Shown one piece after another: positions 10,442 through 26,541 of a stretch of 37,561 bases of DNA. Within the stretch, counting starts at the first letter, position 1. Each line of letters begins with the position of its first letter. The stretch is taken from contig PLXJ01000033.1 of the NCBI GenBank assembly GCA_003151395.1, forward strand, positions 1 through 37,561, read 5' to 3'. Origin of the DNA: Actinomycetota bacterium. Its GTDB lineage: Bacteria; Actinomycetota; Actinomycetes; Nanopelagicales; Nanopelagicaceae. Both the position numbers and the translations under genes were made by a program. The notes beneath the pieces were generated by a model. It searched no databases. It saw only the letters and a program-made list of their open reading frames with translations, and was not told the origin of the DNA.

Positions 10442-10825
10442 CTAAGAAACTAGTAATTCCGCCCCCGGCGTCTTCCGAGCGAGCTTCTCGTCAAAAGTCA
10501 GCAACGTCAATCCCTTATCAATCGCGGTGGCGGCAATCAAGGCATCTGGCAATTTAATCTTGGTCGCGGCGCGCATTTGAGCAGCTTTTGTCGCAATGGA
10601 AACAGTGACATCAACAATTTCGTCTACGAACGTCATAATTGCTTCAGACATTGCACCGTAATTGTTTTTTTCAAATGGGTAGACCAACGCCTCCGAATAG
10701 CTCACAACCGAAATGCTCAAACGAGCTTTGCTCTGAAGTAAGCGTTTCTTAATGCTTTTATGATGGATATCATCACTATTCATAATTGCCAACAACGCAT
10801 CAGAATCTAGAATTAATCCGGCCAT
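10442..10825 (-). CDS. vapC: PIN-domain toxin, VapC family
   Basis: This is a 127-residue PIN-domain RNase. The expected acidic residues are present: Asp7/Asp9 in 'LILDSDALL', Glu45 in 'YSEAL', Asp94 in 'LPDALIAATA' and Asp112 in 'TFDEKLA'. VapC toxins cleave tRNA or rRNA when released from their antitoxin. The start ATG at 10825 overlaps the end of the antitoxin gene by 13 nt, the normal coupling of such pairs. The target RNA cannot be predicted. The active site is complete, so the toxin is probably functional. Confidence 0.88.
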   Translation of the reverse strand: MAGLILDSDALLAIMNSDDIHHKSIKKRLLQSKARLSISVVSYSEALVYPFEKNNYGAMSEAIMTFVDEIVDVTVSIATKAAQMRAATKIKLPDALIAATAIDKGLTLLTFDEKLARKTPGAELLVS

Positions 10826-11109
10826 GCATCTGCACGTTCTGCCGCGAAGTCATAACCATCATAAAAACCATTGAGGCTTGCGATCCACTCGAGCAGATCA
10901 ACCCGTTTCTTCGTGACAATTATCTTTTTACCCTCAACGTTAAAAACCAACTCATCCCCCACTTTGAGACCAACCTCCCGCAACACATCGACTGGAATCG
11001 TCACCTGATGCTTGGAACTTAACCGAGAAGAATTGCCCCGACCCTTGCGAGTCGACTTAACTGTGGACACGCCAGTCCCAGAATCCTTATCCTTTACTAA
11101 ATCGCCCAT
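10813..11109 (-). CDS. vapB: AbrB/MazE-type swapped-hairpin antitoxin, VapB
   Basis: The protein is 98 residues from ATG 11109. Residues about 30-70 hold a SpoVT/AbrB DNA-binding fold ('SSKHQVTIPVDVLREVG', then 'VGDELVF'), and the C-terminal acidic/aromatic tail should bind the toxin. It would neutralise VapC and autoregulate the operon. No ribosome site precedes it. Instead TAGCCT lies on the minus strand at 11121-11116, exactly 6 nt before the ATG, which suggests a leaderless transcript and rules against the in-frame TTG at 11115. Confidence 0.87.
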   Translation of the reverse strand: MGDLVKDKDSGTGVSTVKSTRKGRGNSSRLSSKHQVTIPVDVLREVGLKVGDELVFNVEGKKIIVTKKRVDLLEWIASLNGFYDGYDFAAERADAWPD

Positions 11110-11115
11110 AAGCAA

Positions 11116-12567: not shown

Positions 12568-15500
12568 ATGCCCTTAATCGATAACAAAAATCAAACCATG
12601 CAAATGGCATTAAGAAACGCACTTAGCAATGCTGATCGTGTAGATATTTCAGTGGGTTACTTTTATTTTTCGGGCTTTGAGGCGTTGGCTGATGAACTCA
12701 AGGACAAGCACGTGCGAATTCTCGTCGGAATGGAATTAGATCCTGTTTGCATTCCAGACATAGTGCAGTTCTGCAAAGAATCTGATGAGGATCTTTCGCG
12801 TTGGCAGCCAAGACAACCCACCCGATCATCACTCGGGCTAATACAAAACTACACGGATAGCTTAGTTGGATTTCTGAACGACAGTGACACATTTGATGAG
12901 CCAAAGGCCGAAGAAGCTTTTGATTCGTTTATTGAAAAATTGCGAGATGGATCTCTTGAAATTCGTAAAACCCTGAGTAATGAGCACGGAAAGTTCTATC
13001 TGGTTTACAATAAAGTTGAGAACTCGCAAGGCGGCGATTTCCCCGGCACTGTTTTTAGTGGCTCGAGCAACATGACCTACAGGGGTTTAATCGGTCAGGG
13101 TGAATTGAATGACTCTCATCGTGACAAATCAAAGTTTGAAGAATATGAGAGTAAATTTAGAGAGTTGTGGGATCCATCGAAGTCTGTCGCAATTGCCGAC
13201 CGGCATAACAAACTTAATTTCATTCGTGAACTTGAGACGCGAGTTTGGAAGTATCAGACGCCATCACCGTACGAGATGTACATTCGAGTCCTTCATGAGC
13301 TTTTCAATCATGAAGAAACTGAAGCAATACTTTCACCCGGAAAGATTACGGGGGGACAGTTCTCTGATTTGAAGTACCAACTTGATGCAGTTCGGATGGG
13401 TATTGATAGGCTGTTTAAGTTTGACGGAGTCATTGTTGCAGACGTCGTTGGTCTTGGAAAGAGCATTATCGCCTCATGTATTGCCCGCAACTTGGACATG
13501 AACACTATCATTATTGCGCCTCCGCACCTTATTCCTCAGTGGGAAGACTACAAAGAACAATTTGGAATTCGCGGCTCGCGCGTCTTCAGTTCCGGCAACA
13601 TTGCGCAAGTCTACGAGCGATATCGAGACTCTAAAGAGCCGATTTTGATTATCCTCGATGAAGCTCACAGGTATCGCAACGAAGACACTAATGATTACAA
13701 GTTGCTCCACCAAGTTTGTCGAGGCAACCCAAACAATAAAGTGATAGTTCTCACTGCGACGCCTTTTAATAATGCTCCCCGAGACGTATTCGCATTAGTC
13801 AAACTTTTTCAAACTCCCGGACAGTCAACGATCAAATCTGTTGATAATCTAAGCCTCAGATTCCGTGAACTCATAGATAGATACAAAAAACTCCGTAAGG
13901 CGATGACTAAAGGTCTTGGCCAAGACCAGATCGACAAAGAAGCTGAGGAGATATCTCAAGAGCAAAGAAGACTCATTGAAAGTGTTGTTATTAGGCGTTC
14001 TCGGCTTGATCTCAAGAGGATCACCCGTTATCGCGAAGACTTGGAACGACAACACATTGATTTTGCTGAAGTGGTGGGTCCCGAATTAATGGAATATGAC
14101 CTTGGAGGACTGCTAGACCTCTACCTTGAAACGCTCAATGCCATTAGTGCATCGGATGGAGGCGAGGGGTTTATCGGGGCTCGATACAAGCCGGCGGTGT
14201 ATATAAATGATAGAAAAGAGTTTTTAGAGAGATTTGGTGAGTATCTAGATGAAACCGATCTAAGAACAGCTCAAGTTAATCTTGCAGACTTCATGCGGAA
14301 ATTATTGGTGATGCGCTTTGAAAGTTCTAAGTATGCTTTTCAAAGCACTCTCAACAAAATGATCCAAACGAATCAACTCGTGGAACGCTGGTGGGAAGAA
14401 CTTGGTCGAGTACCCATCATGAAGAAGGGACAAATACCTGACCCAGATGATCTCTCGGATTATGACGAGGATGACGCAGAAAATCACAGCGCTCTTGATG
14501 AGGAACTTGAACAGCTTAGGGACGATAAGGGATTAATTTCGATCCCAAAGGAATTAATTGACCTTAAATTTATTGAAGATGTTCGAAAGGACACGAATCT
14601 TCTTGTCAACATACGATCCCGTTGGTTTGATGATCCTGTTATTAGAGATGAGGATCCCAAGACAGATGATTTGGCAAAGAGAATTGCAGCATTGCTAGCT
14701 CAAGACCCCAACAGGAAGATAATAATTTTTTCTGGGTATGCAGATACAGTCAATTATCTGTACGGCGAATTACGTAACCGTGGATTTGAAAGGCTGTTTC
14801 ACTATACGGCCGCAGATGCAAGCATAGCGACCAGAAGGGTCATCAACCTGAATTTTGATGCTTCAGTGCCCGAAGCTCAGCAAGTGAATGATTTCGACGT
14901 TCTTATAGCCACAGATGCTTTAAGCGAAGGCTATAACCTTCATAGGGCCGGAGTCGTAATTAACTATGACATTCCGTACAATCCAACACGAGTAATTCAG
15001 CGAGTGGGACGTATAAATCGAATAAACAGGAAAGTATTTGATCAACTATTTGTTTTCAATTCATTTCCAACCGCCATCGGAGAAGCGATAACTCGAATTC
15101 AGCAGATTTCAACACTGAAAATTAAGCTTATCAATGCAATTGTTGGAAGTGATACCAAAACACTTACAGACGATGAGTTGATTCAGAGTTACTTCAAAGA
15201 TGAATACGACGTTGCGGAAGCCCAAAGTGAGATCATCTCGTGGGACGCCGAGCATAGAGACGTCTATTTCAAAGCGCTGGAGAATGAAAAAATTATTTCG
15301 AACGTTTTAAAGATCCCTCGCCGTGCAAGAGTTCTCCGAAAAGACCAAGATGAGTCAGTCGTTGTTGTCTTTGGAAAAAAGGGTGACCAGGCAATCTTTA
15401 CACTTGCGGACGGTGTTTTTGAACCCTGTGTCGTGAGCGCCGAGAGAGCCATACCTTTATTTGCAGCGACGGTTGAAGAACAAAGTTTCGAAGTACAAGA

Positions 15501-15855
15501 TAAGTTTGCCCCTATCTTTAACAAGGCCAAGGAAAAGTTGTTTGCTAAACATCCTCTGCCTGCAATCAAAGGGCGAAGGCAAGATGCCATCAAGAATCTT
15601 ATGGTAGTAAAGGAAACGATACCCGAATCCGAAGGTTACTGCACGGACCTTATTAAAGTCATCAAGGAATATGATGATGTTAGTGAAGGCACACTTAAAG
15701 ACATCGTTCAAATTGAAATGCGAAATATTGAACAAACCTACGAACAATTGCTAGAGCTTGTTCCCATTCAATTCATACGAAATGTCATAGATCGCGCCCA
15801 CCGAGCAGCTGAAGGCAGGGAACTCCTCCTGCTTGCACAGGAGCAAGAAAAATGA
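12568..15855 (+). CDS. SNF2-type helicase with N-terminal phospholipase-D-like domain
   Basis: The protein is 1095 residues. Residues 1 to about 220 resemble a PLD-type nuclease: 'HGKFYLVYN' from His140 gives the H-x-K pair, and 'GSSNMTYRGL' near 170 is typical. The Asp expected to complete HxK-x4-D is a Tyr, so catalysis is uncertain. A superfamily 2 (SNF2/DEAH-like) motor follows with Walker A 'GLGKS' near 295, 'DEAH' near 362, 'LTATPFNN' near 397 and 'QRVGRINRINR' near 810. The middle (about 420-680) is charged and coil-like. It probably translocates on DNA for restriction. Its stop overlaps the methyltransferase ATG by 4 nt. Similar helicases occur in DISARM (DrmD) and other restriction-like systems; no exact family is claimed. 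Confidence 0.85.
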   Translation: MPLIDNKNQTMQMALRNALSNADRVDISVGYFYFSGFEALADELKDKHVRILVGMELDPVCIPDIVQFCKESDEDLSRWQPRQPTRSSLGLIQNYTDSLVGFLNDSDTFDEPKAEEAFDSFIEKLRDGSLEIRKTLSNEHGKFYLVYNKVENSQGGDFPGTVFSGSSNMTYRGLIGQGELNDSHRDKSKFEEYESKFRELWDPSKSVAIADRHNKLNFIRELETRVWKYQTPSPYEMYIRVLHELFNHEETEAILSPGKITGGQFSDLKYQLDAVRMGIDRLFKFDGVIVADVVGLGKSIIASCIARNLDMNTIIIAPPHLIPQWEDYKEQFGIRGSRVFSSGNIAQVYERYRDSKEPILIILDEAHRYRNEDTNDYKLLHQVCRGNPNNKVIVLTATPFNNAPRDVFALVKLFQTPGQSTIKSVDNLSLRFRELIDRYKKLRKAMTKGLGQDQIDKEAEEISQEQRRLIESVVIRRSRLDLKRITRYREDLERQHIDFAEVVGPELMEYDLGGLLDLYLETLNAISASDGGEGFIGARYKPAVYINDRKEFLERFGEYLDETDLRTAQVNLADFMRKLLVMRFESSKYAFQSTLNKMIQTNQLVERWWEELGRVPIMKKGQIPDPDDLSDYDEDDAENHSALDEELEQLRDDKGLISIPKELIDLKFIEDVRKDTNLLVNIRSRWFDDPVIRDEDPKTDDLAKRIAALLAQDPNRKIIIFSGYADTVNYLYGELRNRGFERLFHYTAADASIATRRVINLNFDASVPEAQQVNDFDVLIATDALSEGYNLHRAGVVINYDIPYNPTRVIQRVGRINRINRKVFDQLFVFNSFPTAIGEAITRIQQISTLKIKLINAIVGSDTKTLTDDELIQSYFKDEYDVAEAQSEIISWDAEHRDVYFKALENEKIISNVLKIPRRARVLRKDQDESVVVVFGKKGDQAIFTLADGVFEPCVVSAERAIPLFAATVEEQSFEVQDKFAPIFNKAKEKLFAKHPLPAIKGRRQDAIKNLMVVKETIPESEGYCTDLIKVIKEYDDVSEGTLKDIVQIEMRNIEQTYEQLLELVPIQFIRNVIDRAHRAAEGRELLLLAQEQEK

Positions 15856-18800
15856 TTTCAGTGTTATCAGAAAAATATAGTCGAAAATTATTCTTGGAAT
15901 TGGCAGAAGGTTTCTTAACTGACGTAAACAGAGATACGAGAACAGTTTCAAAAGTGTCTTCAAATTTTGAAGCGGTCACTTCACTTGGATCCTCTTTCCC
16001 TCTAGATCTTCAATTATTCGAAGTAAAAGTTTCCGGATCTTTAGACAAGCGAGTTGCCATAGCATCAGATGCCTTCAAACTAATGAAGCACACCGCGTCC
16101 TATAGATCTCTGGTCGCGTTCTACTCTGAAGACACCGACCAATGGCGGCTTTCGCTTCTAACGGCGAAACCAACTCTCGACAATGGCAAGGTTGTGACAA
16201 AACTTTCTAGCCCACGTCGTTTTTCCTACTTGTTGGGACCGGGCAGCAAACTCACGACTCCATCCAAACAACTTATAGCTAAAGGTAAAGTCAAAGATTT
16301 CGAGGATCTTTCAAATCGTTTTGCAGTCGAAGTTGTAAACAATGAATTTTATAGTGAGATATCAAAGCTCTATGATGAACTTGTCGGAAGCGATACGGTC
16401 AAACCGTCCCTTCGCTACCCGAATTCGGGTGAACCCAGTTACGAATTCGCCGTGCGGTTAATCGGCAGAATAATCTTTTGCTGGTTTCTACGAGAGAAAC
16501 GAAGTTCAAAAGGCATACCTCTGATTACGGCAAATACTTTGTCTCGTGCAGCAGCATCCTGTAAGAATTATTATCATTCGATACTTGCGCCACTCTTCTT
16601 CGAAGTTCTAAACAAACCGCTCATTAACCGTGAGGCGCGATTTCAAGAAGATAACTTTGTTTCAATTCCATATCTCAATGGCGGTTTATTCAATCCAGAC
16701 AACGATGACTTCTACAAATTTAATAGAGTTTCACAACAATCCACTTCGGATAGTGTTCACGTGCCAGACGTGTGGCTTCGAAAGTTTTTTGATTTACTGG
16801 AACTTTACAATTTCACGGTTGATGAGAACACTAGTTATGACATTGACCTATCAATAGACCCGGAAATGCTGGGTCGCATTTTTGAAAATCTTCTTGCACG
16901 AATCAATCCTGAAACAGGTGAAACCGTAAGAAAGGGTACCGGTAGTTTCTACACACCAAGAGAAGTTGTAGAATACATGGTTGATGAGAGTTTGAAAAAA
17001 TATTTAACGAACTCAACAAGTATTTCAGAAGACAAGATAAAAGCTCTAATCAGCTACGACCAAGTGGATGACTTGGAGCATCCACTGACCAAAACGGAAG
17101 AATTGAAGGTAATTGAGGCATTCGCATCGGTTCGAATATTGGACCCGGCTTGTGGTTCAGGAGCTTTCCCGATTGGTATTCTACAAAAGATAGTATTTGT
17201 GCTTCAGCAAATTGATCCAGATTCTAGACAATGGCTTACAAAACAACTTGCCGGGGCTGGTCCTGAACTGAGAAATCACCTCGAGCAAGAGTTTCAAAAT
17301 AAAAATTTTGATTATCTTCGCAAGCTCGGAGTCATTAGAGAAAGTATTTATGGTGTCGATATTCAACCAATCGCTACTGAAATTTCGCGCTTGCGTTGTT
17401 TTCTCACTCTTGTTGTCGAACAATCCGTCCATGATGATGATCTAAATAGGGGTATAGAGCCCCTTCCAAATCTCGATTTTAAATTTGTTACAGCCAACAG
17501 TTTGATCAAATTAGAAAGCAAACGTAGAGATGGCTCCCGCCAAACCGGTCTTTTCGAAGATACGTCAGGAATTTCTGAATTGAAGGAATTGAGAAACGAA
17601 TACTTTGGAACACACAATTCCACGAGGGATAGTTTGAAATTGCGTTTTTCTCAAAGCCAAAATCAAATGTTGCAACGGATGATGTTACAGAGCAGTAACG
17701 GTTATGCAAATTTGACCAAAAAGATTTCCACTTGGAATCCCTTCAGTCATCACACTACAGACTGGTTCGATGCGGAGTGGATGTTTGGAATTGCAGATGG
17801 ATTCGACATTGTTATTGGGAATCCGCCTTACTACAAGGAAAATGACGACAAGGAGAGATTTGAACATTTGAGAGACCTGGAGTGCTACCAGGGAAAAATG
17901 GATGTCTGGTACCTCTTTGGTGCCTTAGGGATTGATATTTTGAAAACTAACGGAATTCTTTGTTTCATTGCAACAAACAATTGGACCACGAATTTTGGTG
18001 CGTCTAAATTCAGAAACAAAGTTTTAGATGAATGTAAAATCTTACAACTGGTGGATTTCGGAAGTTATTTCGTCTTCGAGTCATCCTCGATACAGACAAT
18101 GGTGATGTTATTCGAGAAGATAAAGCAAGCACAATACAACTTTGATTATAGGAAGATTCACATCGAAAAACCCGTTGTTCAAGACATGATCGATGCCCTA
18201 AGTCATAATTCTAGCGATCGCGTAACTTATTTCGAACCTACTATTGAGGTCGCTAAAAGCAAAAATGCTTTGCTCACCTTTTCGGACAGTCAAGGAGAAG
18301 AACTTCTCGCTAGGATTTATAAACATGGCCAAATACGTTTGACTCCAAAAGAAGTAGCTCAAGGAATTGTTTTCCCACAAGATGTTGTTAATAAAAAGTC
18401 TGCGGAAAAACTTGGTTCCGTAGGTAAGGTTGGAGATGGCGTATTTGTCCTAAGCCATGCGGAACTAAAATCATTAAAGCTTTCAAGCTATGAGAAGGAA
18501 CTTATTAAGCCGTACTACACGAGTAAGCAAATTAAGAGATATGCGGCTGACCCCTCAAACTTGGAATGGGTTATATATACCGATTCAAAATTCAAGAGTC
18601 CCGACAGTATGGGTGATTTCCCAAAACTCAAGATGCATCTCGATCGTTTTAACGAGGTTATCACTTCAAGTAATGCACCTTATGGTTTGCACCGAGCTCG
18701 AGAGGAGAGATTTTTCAGAGGTGAGAAGATAATGGCGCTGAGAAAGAGTGTGGGAAGACCAATTTTCAGTTACGTGGATTTTGATTGCTACGTTTCAGCC

Positions 18801-19118
18801 ACTTGGTTTGTTATCAAACCAGTAAGAATTGATGTTATGTATCTAACGGGTTTGCTTAACTCAAAGCTAATGTCTTATTGGCTCAAGAACAAAGGGAAAA
18901 TGCAAGGTGGTAATTATCAGGTTGATAAGGAACCCTTACTGGGGATGCCGATTGCCAGTTCTGGTTCGGCGATCGAATTTCAGATAGCGAAGAAAGTTAA
19001 TGAGATCTACAAATATCCCGAACGCCAAAAGGTGCTGGAGTCTGAGATTGATCAGTTTGTCTATGAAATCTATGAACTGACTCCGATGGACATAAAAGTG
19101 ATTGAAGGTCTCCAATGA
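15852..19118 (+). CDS. Large Eco57I-like adenine-specific DNA methyltransferase, possible restriction-modification fusion
   Basis: The protein is 1088 residues. The methyltransferase core has SAM motif I 'DPACGSGAF' near residue 430 and catalytic motif IV 'GNPPYY' near 656, the NPPY form of N6-adenine methylases. About 700-1088 probably contains the target recognition region. Residues 1-200 resemble the leading domain of type IIG enzymes; 'DLQLFEVKV' (52-60) offers an Asp and an E-x-K, a possible weak PD-(D/E)xK nuclease core, but this is inference. Eco57I-like and PglX/DrmMI-like methylases share this layout. It is translationally coupled to the helicase gene (ATGA overlap), so the two should work as one complex: methylation for self marking and helicase-driven restriction. 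Confidence 0.87.
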   Translation: MISVLSEKYSRKLFLELAEGFLTDVNRDTRTVSKVSSNFEAVTSLGSSFPLDLQLFEVKVSGSLDKRVAIASDAFKLMKHTASYRSLVAFYSEDTDQWRLSLLTAKPTLDNGKVVTKLSSPRRFSYLLGPGSKLTTPSKQLIAKGKVKDFEDLSNRFAVEVVNNEFYSEISKLYDELVGSDTVKPSLRYPNSGEPSYEFAVRLIGRIIFCWFLREKRSSKGIPLITANTLSRAAASCKNYYHSILAPLFFEVLNKPLINREARFQEDNFVSIPYLNGGLFNPDNDDFYKFNRVSQQSTSDSVHVPDVWLRKFFDLLELYNFTVDENTSYDIDLSIDPEMLGRIFENLLARINPETGETVRKGTGSFYTPREVVEYMVDESLKKYLTNSTSISEDKIKALISYDQVDDLEHPLTKTEELKVIEAFASVRILDPACGSGAFPIGILQKIVFVLQQIDPDSRQWLTKQLAGAGPELRNHLEQEFQNKNFDYLRKLGVIRESIYGVDIQPIATEISRLRCFLTLVVEQSVHDDDLNRGIEPLPNLDFKFVTANSLIKLESKRRDGSRQTGLFEDTSGISELKELRNEYFGTHNSTRDSLKLRFSQSQNQMLQRMMLQSSNGYANLTKKISTWNPFSHHTTDWFDAEWMFGIADGFDIVIGNPPYYKENDDKERFEHLRDLECYQGKMDVWYLFGALGIDILKTNGILCFIATNNWTTNFGASKFRNKVLDECKILQLVDFGSYFVFESSSIQTMVMLFEKIKQAQYNFDYRKIHIEKPVVQDMIDALSHNSSDRVTYFEPTIEVAKSKNALLTFSDSQGEELLARIYKHGQIRLTPKEVAQGIVFPQDVVNKKSAEKLGSVGKVGDGVFVLSHAELKSLKLSSYEKELIKPYYTSKQIKRYAADPSNLEWVIYTDSKFKSPDSMGDFPKLKMHLDRFNEVITSSNAPYGLHRAREERFFRGEKIMALRKSVGRPIFSYVDFDCYVSATWFVIKPVRIDVMYLTGLLNSKLMSYWLKNKGKMQGGNYQVDKEPLLGMPIASSGSAIEFQIAKKVNEIYKYPERQKVLESEIDQFVYEIYELTPMDIKVIEGLQ

Positions 19119-19454
19119 AATTTTCCGTGAAAGCGATCGGAACCTTCATCCCCGTCGCATTTTTCTCAAATATTAAATCGAATTTCGAGTTTGCACCATT
19201 CGTTAAGCAGTGAAAACAGTTCTCCGTTCTCGGATCTTGTGTCAGCAGACGGTTCCTCGTGTGGCGGTTTTTCCGTCGCGAATAGTGACTTTATCTGGTA
19301 ATCGACTTTCCTATCGAGTCTAGTGACGACGGAGTGAACTTATGCGCGAATCGATGCGGCATCGCTGACATGCTTCGCCGAATGTCTTCAAAACCACTGG
19401 AATCAAGTGAACCCAGTTCTTCCACACAATCCACTTTGCCGATAGCTTTCACCT
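19119..19454 (+). other. 336-bp gap between methyltransferase and HNH genes, with inverted repeats
   Basis: No gene longer than a few codons is visible. Two structures stand out: an inverted repeat CCGTCG (19273-19278) / CGACGG (19327-19332) enclosing a 7-nt direct repeat TAGTGAC, and a compact palindrome CGATGC-G-GCATCG (19352-19364). Either could be a protein-binding site or part of a leader RNA for the HNH gene. No terminator with a T tract was seen after the methyltransferase gene. Confidence 0.4.
19443..19448 (+). promoter_or_regulatory. Leaderless -10 element of the HNH gene
   Basis: TAGCTT is 6 nt before GTG 19455. The TAG is also the in-frame stop just upstream of the gene, so GTG is the first usable start. 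No ribosome site is present. Confidence 0.5.
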
Positions 19455-20348
19455 GTGATCTCGGCGATTGAACTTGAAATCAGCAGACGCCTTGACGCCT
19501 GGAACCTCCTGCAAAATTCACCGAATTGGCCGCTAGTGTCGGCTGGAGAAGTGCGGGATTTAAGGCTTTACGGCGGCGCATCAGGCGTTTGGGTTGATAA
19601 AGAAACCACAACTGCAATTGCCCAAGATGGAGTCGCTGTTGGGTTACTTCACACTGGTCGCCATTATGACGATGATGTAGATGAATCCGGAATTCTGTAT
19701 CACTATCCGACTACTGAAAGAGCTGCCTCTCGTGACGCAAATGAGATTCAGGCTATCAAAAATGCAAAAAAATTTGGGGTTCCTATCTTCGTGATTCGAA
19801 ATATCGGTTCCGCAAAGCGAGTTGAACTTGCATGGTTGAACGACTTCGATGACGAATTGAGGATTTGCGTTTTAACCTTCCATGGAATCCTGCCAACACA
19901 GAATCCGTTCGTGATCGATGATCATTCAGGCCAAGGAACTCCCATTCTGTTCGGCACTCACAGGAGAACCAAGCGAGAAATCGAACGAGCAGAAAGAGAT
20001 CCGCTCTTTAAATTTAGCATTCTCAGGCGCTTTGAAGGCAAGTGTCTCCTTACCTCACTCGACGTTACTGAGATGTTGGATGCAGCCCACATCATTCCGG
20101 TTACTAGTGGAGGTACCGAGGACCCAAATAATGGCCTATTGCTTTCGGCCAGTGCACATCGTGCGTTGGATGCGGGACTCTGGGCCATTAATCCAAAATC
20201 TTTAAAGTTAGAAACCCGCCAGCATGGACCAAATTCGTTGAGAATGAAACTTGAAAAGGTAGATCTTTCCGCCTCTGCACATTTATTAAATAGAGAAGCG
20301 CTTCAATTCAGATATGAAAAGCTATTTCTACTAGGCAAGAAGAAGTAG
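19455..20348 (+). CDS. HNH endonuclease with N-terminal sensor-like domain
   Basis: The protein is 297 residues and starts with GTG. The C-terminal third is an HNH nuclease: Cys near 197 in 'GKCLLTSL', 'DAAHIIPV' with His212, 'NNGLLLS' near 225 and 'SAHRALDAG' with His near 235. The N-terminal region (about 25-150) contains 'GGASGVWVDK', 'LLHTGRHYDDDV' and 'LYHYPTTERAASRDANEI'. This resembles the recognition half of McrA-like or SRA-like modification-dependent enzymes, which is my inference. It may be a type IV restriction enzyme or the nuclease arm of the preceding helicase-methyltransferase module. The gap and its own leaderless start argue for separate expression. Confidence 0.82.
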   Translation: MISAIELEISRRLDAWNLLQNSPNWPLVSAGEVRDLRLYGGASGVWVDKETTTAIAQDGVAVGLLHTGRHYDDDVDESGILYHYPTTERAASRDANEIQAIKNAKKFGVPIFVIRNIGSAKRVELAWLNDFDDELRICVLTFHGILPTQNPFVIDDHSGQGTPILFGTHRRTKREIERAERDPLFKFSILRRFEGKCLLTSLDVTEMLDAAHIIPVTSGGTEDPNNGLLLSASAHRALDAGLWAINPKSLKLETRQHGPNSLRMKLEKVDLSASAHLLNREALQFRYEKLFLLGKKK

Positions 20349-22320: not shown

Positions 22321-24489
22321 TTATTCATCAACATTGTCAGCGTCATCACTCTCGTCCTCAACTTCGGCAAGGCCAATCATGTCTCTATATTCTTCACGGA
22401 GATCAGCCATTGATTTCCTAGTACCCTCGTCAATAAGCCAATAGGTCCAACCATTAGTGCTTCGTTTTTGAACTTGGAATCCCGCCAATGACAAGGAATT
22501 GAAGGTTACTCCTCCCACTTCGACCCTTCCATCGTCTAGGATTTGGGCGAATTTTCCTTCAGGATTATTCCTTTTTGGGAACAGCATCTGACCAGCGGAA
22601 ACAAGGCCCGCTGAAATCAAGTCAATTACCTCAACTTTAAGTGGTTCCTCACCCTTAACTTGAACCACATGGGATTTATGACCCTCCGGCACGGGCCATA
22701 TCGAGATGATAACGTCAATCAAATGTGAAGTGCGATCGATAATACTTTTTTCATTCCAACCATCCGCACCCGCTTCTTGAATCTGCTTATTCATGAGCAG
22801 AACATCGTGTTTCGTCAGCTCAGCATTTTTCAACTTCCAAGGACCGTTGGATATGGAACTATTGAGTTTTGTTGTCAGTAAAGTAAGGTTTCCCAGAGTT
22901 TGCAATAGCACTTCACGTTCTTCTTCGGATTTATCTACTAATGGCCAGTTCAATTGCCACGACTGTGGCAGCAAGTGCTCAATGACATAGGATCCGCGCT
23001 TCACGCGCATTCCAGCTTTTGAACCGGCCACTCCTATCCAACCACGTTTGTAATCTTCTACGGCTTCGAAAATCATTCGAATACGGGATTTGTAGAGCGT
23101 TCTATAAATTTGTCTTTCAGAAACTACACCTCTTATTTCGGCATCATCTGGCCAATATGAACTACTACTATTTTGTTCTTTAAAGTATTTCTCGAGTTGA
23201 CTACTCGCATTTGATCGATCTTTCTTAACCACTTGAACCATTTCAACAACTAATTTGTTGTAATTAGAGTTTGTTGCACGCACCAAAAGGCGCCGTATCA
23301 TCCAACTTTCAATAATCGCCAAAGATTTTTCTATTTCACTTTCATTAATTGTAGATTCTTCAGGATCAGTTAAACATATCAATATTGGTCGCAGGACATC
23401 AAGCTCCATAGAATTCAATCTATAAGCGAAAAGTTCTAAAGGCGATAAAGTTTTGTCCTTGTCTTCTGCTGCAAGGATAATTTCTTCATACCGCTTTGCA
23501 GCAGAGTGCAATTGTTCGATAAGTTGCAGCATCGAACATTTACTATCGTAATCAGCAAAATTCTTAAAAGTTGAAAATATCTCGCGATTTAACACCTCTT
23601 CGCCAATTTTAGATATTAGCCAGTGATTAATAAACAGTGAAGACCTCTGAAATTTGATTCGGCCGTAACTGATTTCCTTTTCCCAAAACGAAGATTCGAA
23701 TTCCTTCCAGTACTGATCATAAATCTTCTCGAGATCAGTCTTCTCTTCAAGTAGTCGTTGAAAAACAAAATTTTTGATTAAATCTGCCGCGGTTAAGACT
23801 GCTCCACGAGCATTTAGAGTTTCAAAGATTTCTTGTGCGTTTTCGTTGAAAGCCAAATCGATGACAACTATTTGAAAAAGATCGCGGCAACATTTGTCTA
23901 AAACCTCGGCCCTTAGCAGTGAATTTTCTTCTCCCGCCCCAGCAAGCCATAGCTTACAACTTTCAGAGAAGAACTCGTGTGCCAAAGCCATCTTTGATTT
24001 TGAATTCTTGAGAGCCCCATAATTTACAGGAATAGGCGCTGCTAATACTTCGTGAAATGCCGGGCGATCTTTATTAGTTGGCCAAATCTTAAATTTATCT
24101 TCCGGTTTGGCGCAATATGCTTCATCATTTTCTATTAGTTTTAACAATCTGGCAGCTGGCATTTTCGCTCCCATAAATTCCAATTCAGCGTGTATCGCAT
24201 CAAACATCAATTGCAACGTTGTAAGTCTTTGTTGGCCATCAATGATTGTCCGTTGTTGCATTTCCCCAACAGGGCTTTGTAATTGTTGGAGAACAACCGC
24301 TCCTAAAAAATGAGGTTCATGATTTGCGTCCGGTTGGGCGAGATACCGTTCTAGGACTCGCTTTAAGTCTCTCCAAAGGGGATCCCAATGCAATTCTCTA
24401 TTCCAAACGTAAGCTCGTTGGAATAGCGGAACTAGGAGTCGTTGCTGAGTATTGAAAATCTGTCCAGGGCTGTAAATATCAGTTCTCAC
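22321..24489 (-). CDS. DUF262/DUF1524 GmrSD-like nuclease with RAMA-like C-terminus
   Basis: The protein is 722 residues. The N-terminal DUF262 domain carries 'VPLFQRAYVWN' (20-30) and the nucleotide-handling motif 'DGQQRLTT' (84-91). The DUF1524 HNH-like domain has 'IEHLLPQSW' near 503 and 'LGNLTLLTTKLNSSISN' near 535. Residues about 615-690 ('LVSAGQMLFP', 'GGVTFNSLSLAGFQV', 'TNGWTYWLI') look like a RAMA/DUF4357-type base-recognition domain. GmrSD enzymes are NTP-dependent type IV restriction enzymes that cut modified phage DNA. The start GTG 24489 has TAGTCT 6 nt upstream that overlaps the stop of the prenyltransferase gene. The gene looks AT-richer than its neighbours, consistent with acquisition. 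Confidence 0.85.
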   Translation of the reverse strand: MRTDIYSPGQIFNTQQRLLVPLFQRAYVWNRELHWDPLWRDLKRVLERYLAQPDANHEPHFLGAVVLQQLQSPVGEMQQRTIIDGQQRLTTLQLMFDAIHAELEFMGAKMPAARLLKLIENDEAYCAKPEDKFKIWPTNKDRPAFHEVLAAPIPVNYGALKNSKSKMALAHEFFSESCKLWLAGAGEENSLLRAEVLDKCCRDLFQIVVIDLAFNENAQEIFETLNARGAVLTAADLIKNFVFQRLLEEKTDLEKIYDQYWKEFESSFWEKEISYGRIKFQRSSLFINHWLISKIGEEVLNREIFSTFKNFADYDSKCSMLQLIEQLHSAAKRYEEIILAAEDKDKTLSPLELFAYRLNSMELDVLRPILICLTDPEESTINESEIEKSLAIIESWMIRRLLVRATNSNYNKLVVEMVQVVKKDRSNASSQLEKYFKEQNSSSSYWPDDAEIRGVVSERQIYRTLYKSRIRMIFEAVEDYKRGWIGVAGSKAGMRVKRGSYVIEHLLPQSWQLNWPLVDKSEEEREVLLQTLGNLTLLTTKLNSSISNGPWKLKNAELTKHDVLLMNKQIQEAGADGWNEKSIIDRTSHLIDVIISIWPVPEGHKSHVVQVKGEEPLKVEVIDLISAGLVSAGQMLFPKRNNPEGKFAQILDDGRVEVGGVTFNSLSLAGFQVQKRSTNGWTYWLIDEGTRKSMADLREEYRDMIGLAEVEDESDDADNVDE

Positions 24490-25245: not shown

Positions 25246-26541
25246 GTGAACCAGAAAAGAAAATTGGCACTTGTTTTCAGTATTCTAATTTTTGGATTAT
25301 CTGTTCCCACCGCCAGTTCTGCCGTTATTTCCAACGGATCCAAATGTCCTCACCCTGGCGTTACCATAAAAATTTCCGGAGTTACTTATAGCTGTACGGC
25401 GAAAAATTCACACTTCCTTTGGATGAAACTAACCAAAAAATCCAAGACAAACAAATCTACAAGCACAGTAGCGCCGACTTCATGGTACAAAGCATTCGCT
25501 CAGCCCGGGATTCTTGCTGGGACTTGCTTAAATGACTCTAGTAGTAATTTGCTGCTTATTGATGCCTCGACCGGAAAAACAATTGCGCAGCACACCGTAC
25601 CCGCTACCATGCATGAACCTACTCTGGGTTCGGTTAATTTTTCTTTGTGTGATGGTCCAAACTCAGATGATGGCGCATCAAATCTTTATATACGACAACA
25701 GTTCAGCCCAGATTTTTCAAAATTAACTTTCACGAGCGCACCTCAAAGTGACGGATCTGTCCACGTTGGATATCTTGATATTGCCACGAATAAATTTACT
25801 GACCTCACAGCTCAATCCATAACCATGGGATTCAGTGCCAACATCCCAATTGATGTTAATCCCATTTTTGATCCAAAAAATGGGATGTTATGCTTTGTGA
25901 GAACATCCGCAACACCAGGTCTGGTGGGATCCGATCCGGCGAACGGATCCAATGAAATTCATTGCAATAATCTCAGTACTCACGCAGATGTCATTGAAGG
26001 TGGCGTGATTAACTCTCCAAGTAACGATGTTAATAACTACTTCTTAACGATTCAAAATGGAATTTTTGTAACAGGCGACCATTTGGTAAGTCCTGATTCG
26101 AATTTGTTCACGGTAACAGCTCCGACGGTTTTGGGACGTGTTCTCTTTGCCCCCACAATTGCGGGTATTGCAAGTTTCATGTGGGATGCGTCAAAACCTT
26201 TGCCTAATGGCACATATTTCGATGTGCCATTTAACACTTTGAGCGCTGACGTATTTGCATGGTTGAACAATTCCAATCTACTTATGTCATTTAGAGGAAG
26301 TTCTGGAATCTATATGATTCCACCTAGTTCCTCACACGAGCTAGATGCAACGCCCTTGGACATAATTCCCACTAATAATGCTGCGAATACGAATGTAATC
26401 GTCTCTCCAAGTGGAACTAATTTGGCATTTATTCATACATTGTTATCCGTTTCAGATTTATTCATTACGCCAACAGCAGCTGGATCGACACCAACGAAAC
26501 TTTTACATAACTTCTCAGCACGACTGATTGAGTGGCAATAA
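25246..26541 (+). CDS. Secreted beta-propeller-like protein
   Basis: This 431-residue protein starts at GTG with a clear Sec signal peptide (basic 'NQKRK', hydrophobic 8-20, probable cleavage after 'ASSA' near 26). Next comes a short domain with two Cys ('KCPHPGVTIKISGVTYSC') ending in 'FLWMKLTKK', a module often seen at the start of secreted acI-type proteins. The rest contains spaced segments such as 'FSPDFSKLTFTS', 'YLDIATNKFTDLT' and 'VSPSGTNLAFIH' that resemble TolB/PD40 propeller blades. Function is unknown; an extracytoplasmic binding role is possible. No catalytic motif was recognised. Confidence 0.7.
   Translation: MNQKRKLALVFSILIFGLSVPTASSAVISNGSKCPHPGVTIKISGVTYSCTAKNSHFLWMKLTKKSKTNKSTSTVAPTSWYKAFAQPGILAGTCLNDSSSNLLLIDASTGKTIAQHTVPATMHEPTLGSVNFSLCDGPNSDDGASNLYIRQQFSPDFSKLTFTSAPQSDGSVHVGYLDIATNKFTDLTAQSITMGFSANIPIDVNPIFDPKNGMLCFVRTSATPGLVGSDPANGSNEIHCNNLSTHADVIEGGVINSPSNDVNNYFLTIQNGIFVTGDHLVSPDSNLFTVTAPTVLGRVLFAPTIAGIASFMWDASKPLPNGTYFDVPFNTLSADVFAWLNNSNLLMSFRGSSGIYMIPPSSSHELDATPLDIIPTNNAANTNVIVSPSGTNLAFIHTLLSVSDLFITPTAAGSTPTKLLHNFSARLIEWQ

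Follow-up and report, generated by a model that had tools for sequence, protein, structure and literature searches.

The stretch of DNA considered here (the window) comprises positions 1 to 37,561 of contig PLXJ01000033.1 (assembly GCA_003151395.1) of an Actinomycetota bacterium of the family Nanopelagicaceae, whose genome is a metagenome-assembled genome with a completeness of 93.6%. This work deals with two adjacent genes of its forward strand. The first (12568..15855) encodes HEL, a protein of 1095 amino acids to which open reading frame and domain profiles assign a PLD nuclease and a SNF2 translocase, so that it would be the restriction and motor chain. The second (15852..19118) encodes MTA, a protein of 1088 amino acids that belongs to the Eco57I class of N6-adenine methyltransferases and carries its own specificity domain.

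Organisation of the locus

The two genes form an operon and overlap by 4 nucleotides (nt; ATGA). Direct reading of the sequence reveals an AGGAG, similar to a ribosome-binding site, within the 3' end of HEL (15839..15843, forward strand), eight bases before the start of MTA; this combination is the usual mark of coupled translation. The G+C content is 0.43 in HEL and 0.40 in MTA, and 0.49 to the left of the unit. An earlier note, made from the sequence alone, had given coordinates and sizes for these genes, the 4-nt overlap and an HNH nuclease gene 336 bp further on, all of which were confirmed on the open reading frames. Scans of the window for promoters and terminators gave nothing beyond the level of shuffled sequence.

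The putative nuclease and motor chain

Three Pfam domains are recognised in HEL: PLDc_2 (residues 17-201), SNF2-rel_dom (361-483) and Helicase_C (705-820). The PLD nuclease domain (12616..13170, forward strand) contains H140-x-K142, G165-S-S-N168 and E179, and the SNF2-type ATPase (13450..15027, forward strand) contains Walker A (G295..K298), D364-E-A-H and motif VI (Q811-R..R815..R818). Residues H140, K142, S166, S167, N168 and E179 of the former, as well as K298, D364, E365, Q811, R812, R815 and R818 of the latter, are identical in all 76 full-length relatives of HEL. Related to this, the RE_NgoFVII profile, which describes PLD restriction enzymes, matches 4 of 8 HEL relatives. One PLD domain per chain would suffice, because in SauUSI and BfiI two PLD domains each contribute their HxK motif to a single active site (PMC7913695). 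SauUSI is besides a precedent for a PLD-SF2 chain able both to translocate and to cut (PMC7913695).

The earlier note had proposed three places for the nuclease activity, namely the PLD-like domain, the N-terminus of MTA and the HNH protein. The first is favoured by the conservation just described. The PLD domain of HEL is likely to be the best nuclease candidate of the unit because its residues are invariant, the MTA N-terminus has no conserved nuclease residues and no significant fold match, and the HNH gene is not linked to the pair.

The methyltransferase chain

MTA, which is present once in the host genome, contains the Pfam domains Eco57I (residues 497-742) and TaqI_C (887-1034). The methyltransferase core (17142..18077, forward strand) includes motif I (D431-PACGSG) and the catalytic N657-P-P-Y660; D431, N657, P658 and P659 are identical in 58 of 58 sequences. 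The TaqI_C domain (18510..18953, forward strand) is the target-recognition domain.

The N-terminal domain of MTA (residues 1-170; 15852..16361, forward strand) contains no recognisable nuclease. A model of residues 1-360 has a predicted local distance difference test score (pLDDT) of about 90 across residues 1-130, and the search of this N-terminal fold against the PDB gave nothing at E<=0.001, the best match (E 0.03) being to unrelated enzymes. The sole D/E/K positions of MTA that could form a PD-(D/E)XK site are D53, E58 and K60, and they are poorly kept (22, 19 and 15 of the 58 sequences, respectively). The second place proposed for the nuclease therefore finds neither conserved catalytic residues nor a significant fold match.

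Conservation and mobility of the pair

When the HEL alignment was scanned against 84,980 species genomes, the 80 best loci came from many bacterial phyla and one archaeon. In 71 of them a relative of MTA is encoded by the same strand no more than four genes away from HEL, downstream in 57 and upstream in 14, and the commonest spacing is again the 4-nt overlap. In the reverse direction, 392 genomes of the phylum were searched, the window being excluded: 10 of 14 MTA-like places adjoin a HEL match (one of the ten, in genome G022, is a weak helicase match only) and the remaining 4 are on other contigs. Because of this co-occurrence in both directions, HEL and MTA are a real conserved unit and not a chance meeting. 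The domain assignments are not due to chance either: the profile scores are above curated cut-offs and the two-gene layout recurs in dozens of distant genomes. The compact, restriction-modification-like unit of helicase and adenine methyltransferase without drmABC that the earlier note had described, with the suggestion that other genomes be surveyed for it, is thus supported as a conserved unit.

The unit is also mobile. Among 32 genomes from the genus, one carries HEL; to the left of it, the gene order from nrdJ to lexA is shared with relatives, and the content beyond lexA is variable. No full-length HEL was found in phage records. Besides, DUF1016-like genes and AlbA_2/Schlafen-like ATP-binding genes (both identified by eye) are repeatedly found next to HEL and MTA or between them (L059, L092, L107, L037 and L070, L092, L101, L126), in the manner of the passenger genes of type I operons.

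Co-variation of the two chains

For 57 pairs, the pairwise distances of successive MTA segments were correlated with the HEL distances (999 permutations). The correlation (r) falls along the protein, from 0.92 for residues 1-170 to 0.74 (170-360), 0.69 (360-545), 0.46 (545-760) and 0.08 for the specificity domain, the permutation maxima being about 0.2 (0.18 for residues 1-170). The N-terminus co-varies with HEL, whereas the specificity domain varies independently of it. Since both parts of MTA have diverged to a similar degree (mean distances of 0.76 and 0.79, respectively), divergence alone cannot explain this contrast.

Linkage could mimic such a gradient given that MTA usually follows HEL. 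The loci with MTA upstream place the specificity end nearest to HEL, and in these (n=11) the N-terminus still ranks first (r 0.92 vs 0.53 for the specificity domain; 0.95 vs 0.46 in the 8 loci left after removing doubtful members). Linkage as the sole cause was rejected on this basis, with the small numbers of loci stated. The N-terminal domain of MTA (about residues 1-170) would consequently be the part that docks onto HEL, as its co-variation suggests.

Specificity cassettes in Prevotella relatives

In Prevotella nigrescens (locus L163), HEL and MTA are followed by two pieces on the opposite strand and then by an invertase of the Mpi family. Both pieces start at the same methyltransferase motif and bear other specificity parts. 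An inverted repeat of 47 nt (96%; 13592-13638 / 16283-16329) connects the NPPY codons of MTA with the start of the first silent cassette, and a second Prevotella (L119), which also carries spare specificity parts, has a 48-nt inverted repeat with the same placement at the NPPY codons. It is predicted that the specificity of the L163 system is switched by means of its 47-nt repeat and the invertase. Related to this, the records of P. nigrescens DSM 13386 include three circular 'plasmids' of 2.6-2.7 kb (NZ_CP133467.1, NZ_CP133468.1 and NZ_CP133466.1) that consist of the specificity locus and end about at its repeats; two of them represent one circle with start points 21 nt apart. These circles are most likely the assembly trace of alternative arrangements and not plasmids.

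A comparable locus has been reported in P. intermedia 17F, with a restriction-modification gene of 1117 amino acids, a methyltransferase piece on the opposite strand and a SNF2-family helicase upstream (PMC5608340). The large gene alone produced N6-methyladenine (m6A) at GGYGAB in E. coli, and the motifs GGNYAG and CCNYAG were left without an assigned enzyme (PMC5608340). Inversion of specificity cassettes would explain these motifs, if the analogy with P. nigrescens is correct. Exchangeable cassettes joined at the NPPY codons are safe only if target recognition by HEL goes by way of MTA, which supports a model of two cooperating chains. In the host genome of the window no specificity cassettes like those of Prevotella were found, and the scan of the window for inverted and direct repeats gave weak pairs only, none of the Prevotella pattern.

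Proposed mechanism and alternative explanations

HEL and MTA probably constitute a single ATP-dependent restriction-modification enzyme with two chains, one in charge of restriction and movement and the other in charge of methylation and specificity. In the mechanism proposed, the target-recognition domain of MTA would pick an asymmetric site, and methylation of an adenine there would protect the host. The N-terminal domain of MTA would also serve as a dock for HEL, which would thereby be recruited to this site. If the site is unmethylated, the SNF2 motor of HEL would be switched on and would travel along the DNA, and the DNA would then be cut by the PLD domain at the HEL N-terminus, in dimeric form as in BfiI and SauUSI. 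Complex formation, translocation, cleavage and phage restriction by the pair are inferred.

A broader proposal is that such pairs represent a so far unnamed two-chain class that crosses phyla, in which a sequence-blind HEL is directed by the N-terminus of MTA and the part of MTA from NPPY onwards can be freely swapped, in some members by DNA inversion. One lineage would thereby obtain several specificities, and the three related motifs of P. intermedia 17F would have the same origin. This proposal is tentative, its chances being somewhat short of even.

Several observations weigh against the two-chain enzyme or parts of it. The classic acidic residue of HKD enzymes (the E of HxKx4E in SauUSI) is not at the usual place in HEL, where the sequence is HGKFYLVY. 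No MTA was detected with 9 of the 80 HEL relatives; in three of these loci (L063, L067 and L102) the contig breaks off next to HEL. Co-variation of the MTA N-terminus with HEL does not prove contact, and the homology with P. intermedia is deduced from layout and from a close Prevotella relative with 25-26% identity to the window.

Four other explanations have been weighed. The pair could be the remnant or the core of a larger DISARM or BREX-related complex that stops phage DNA, perhaps by means other than cleavage; the earlier note had spoken of a reduced DISARM. It is true that HEL resembles DrmD (130.9 bits) and MTA resembles PglX (69.5 bits), and that type-2 BREX-related (DUF499) systems combine a fusion of HKD nuclease and SNF2 helicase with an N6-methyltransferase, together with the DUF499 ATPase and DUF3780 (PMC12839542). 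However, the scores are far under the equivalog cut-offs (610 and 500, respectively), the PLD domain is built into HEL and the pair is conserved alone. The DrmB-type MZB domain (PF09369, MZB/DUF1998) has no match across the host genome and appears in 3 of 27 pair-carrying genomes searched, never near the pair, and the DUF499 ATPase (PF04465) is absent from the host genome and appears in one of the 26 other carriers, far from the pair. No candidate for drmA or for a separate drmC lies in the neighbourhood of the pair, no genome-wide search having been made for these two. The absence of the DISARM partners claimed by the earlier note therefore holds genome-wide for the DrmB-type domain and in the neighbourhood for the others, and a reduced DISARM or BREX-related system is quite unlikely. 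So is the second explanation, in which MTA acts on its own as a type IIG enzyme whose nuclease lies in the N-terminus and HEL is independent or accessory. The best PADLOC match of MTA is indeed REase_MTase_IIG (252 bits) and the predicted order of strands and helices in its N-terminus loosely recalls a PD-(D/E)XK core, but the poorly kept residues and the insignificant PDB match described above speak against a nuclease there, this N-terminus co-varies with HEL, and MTA relatives seldom occur without HEL. The 'type IIG-like' label of the earlier note consequently fits the methyltransferase chain only.

The third explanation adds the HNH protein as the effector nuclease of a three-gene module. 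Its gene is on the same strand, begins 336 nt after the end of MTA and encodes an intact HNH_2 domain, but no HNH relative was found beside any of 80 other pairs. A relative was detected in 1 of 295 other genomes of the phylum, with neither HEL nor MTA in the stretch around it, a Bradyrhizobium relative likewise lacks such neighbours, and the G+C content of the gene (0.46) differs from that of the pair (0.40-0.43). The HNH gene appears to be a separate passenger and not a third member of the unit; the three-gene module, and with it the last of the places proposed for the nuclease, is very unlikely. Finally, the pair could be an epigenetic regulator in which MTA methylates and restriction by HEL has been lost, as the resemblance between specificity switching in relatives and phase-variable regulatory methyltransferases might suggest. 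This is very improbable, because the PLD and ATPase residues are all unchanged across the 76 relatives and selection would not hold them in an unused nuclease.

Neighbouring genes in the window

The HNH endonuclease gene (19455..20348, forward strand) encodes 297 amino acids, judged a neighbour outside the unit, with the HNH_2 domain at residues 197-246. The protein gives weak matches to McrA/HNH modification-dependent enzymes. In its N-terminus (19455-19900) the pattern GRHYDDDVDESGILYHYPTT...N.A...G.PIFVI is SRA-like by eye, a resemblance that no profile match confirmed; the gene could therefore encode a type IV enzyme that depends on DNA modification. The single-sequence structure model was uninformative (mean pLDDT 30).

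A second defence gene, close to an m6A methyltransferase, is found at 22321-24489 (reverse strand) and encodes a GmrSD-type restriction protein of 722 amino acids (GmrSD_N and GmrSD_C) with a C-terminal RAMA domain, which is suspected to be a reader of modified DNA. At 10442-11115 (reverse strand) there are a PIN-domain protein and a small upstream open reading frame, likely a toxin-antitoxin pair, with no counterpart at that place in syntenic relatives. A protein of 431 amino acids (25246-26541, forward strand) has no Pfam or NCBIfam match.

Comparison with known systems

In public annotation HEL is a 'helicase-related protein' and MTA an 'N-6 DNA methylase', and PADLOC points MTA to type IIG, so the unit is easily missed or mis-typed. 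If the interpretation proposed here is true, the pair represents a restriction barrier of wide occurrence whose specificity can be exchanged, type IIG calls are corrected, and there is a testable answer for methylation motifs that lack an assigned enzyme in Prevotella and, by similarity, in Rikenella. Nowhere in the literature searched is the pair described under a system name, subscription journals and REBASE being outside the scope of the search.

The pair shares with class 1 DISARM a SNF2 helicase (DrmD) and an adenine methyltransferase (DrmMI), and differs from it by the fusion of PLD to the helicase, the low score and the lack of a DrmB-type domain in the genome. The type-2 BREX-related systems are similar in their HKD/PLD-SNF2 fusion and N6-methyltransferase, whereas DUF499 is absent here. 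SauUSI (type IV) also has a PLD nuclease ahead of a SF2 ATPase, the HxK motif and a dimeric PLD site, but it possesses its own 5-methylcytosine reader and no methyltransferase (PMC7913695); here target reading and protection would reside in MTA. CglI and NgoAVII are ATP-dependent PLD restriction enzymes as well, and the RE_NgoFVII profile matches relatives of HEL; in these enzymes, however, PLD is fused with a B3 DNA-binding domain, a second polypeptide supplying the helicase (PMC5737866). Pin17FIII of P. intermedia is similar in its layout, a SNF2 helicase upstream of the 1117-amino-acid m6A methyltransferase plus the opposite-strand piece, although it was reported as type IIG and neither the role of the helicase nor specificity switching was worked out there (PMC5608340).

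In type IIG enzymes nuclease and methyltransferase are in one chain, whereas the MTA N-terminus has neither conserved nuclease residues nor a significant fold match; the conserved HEL partner argues against type IIG action without ATP and helicase. Type I systems have a separate HsdS, and here the specificity domain is within MTA, with no hsdS among the neighbours. As regards type III, the division of labour fits, but instead of a beta-class Mod and Res there are an Eco57I-class MTA and a PLD-SNF2 HEL. Type ISP enzymes (LlaGI, LlaBIII) likewise combine nuclease, SF2 motor, adenine methyltransferase and specificity domain in joint action on an asymmetric site; they are a single chain with a Mrr-family nuclease (PMC4666363; PMC5737866), whereas here there are two reading frames with a 4-nt overlap, a PLD nuclease and a SNF2 motor. 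HEL and MTA are neither DISARM nor plain type IIG and fall within the definition of neither type ISP nor type III. The proposed mechanism would follow the logic of type ISP or type III with other protein families, and the pair holds in one operon what defines ATP-dependent restriction-modification in general: a motor, a putative nuclease and a cognate methyltransferase with its specificity domain.

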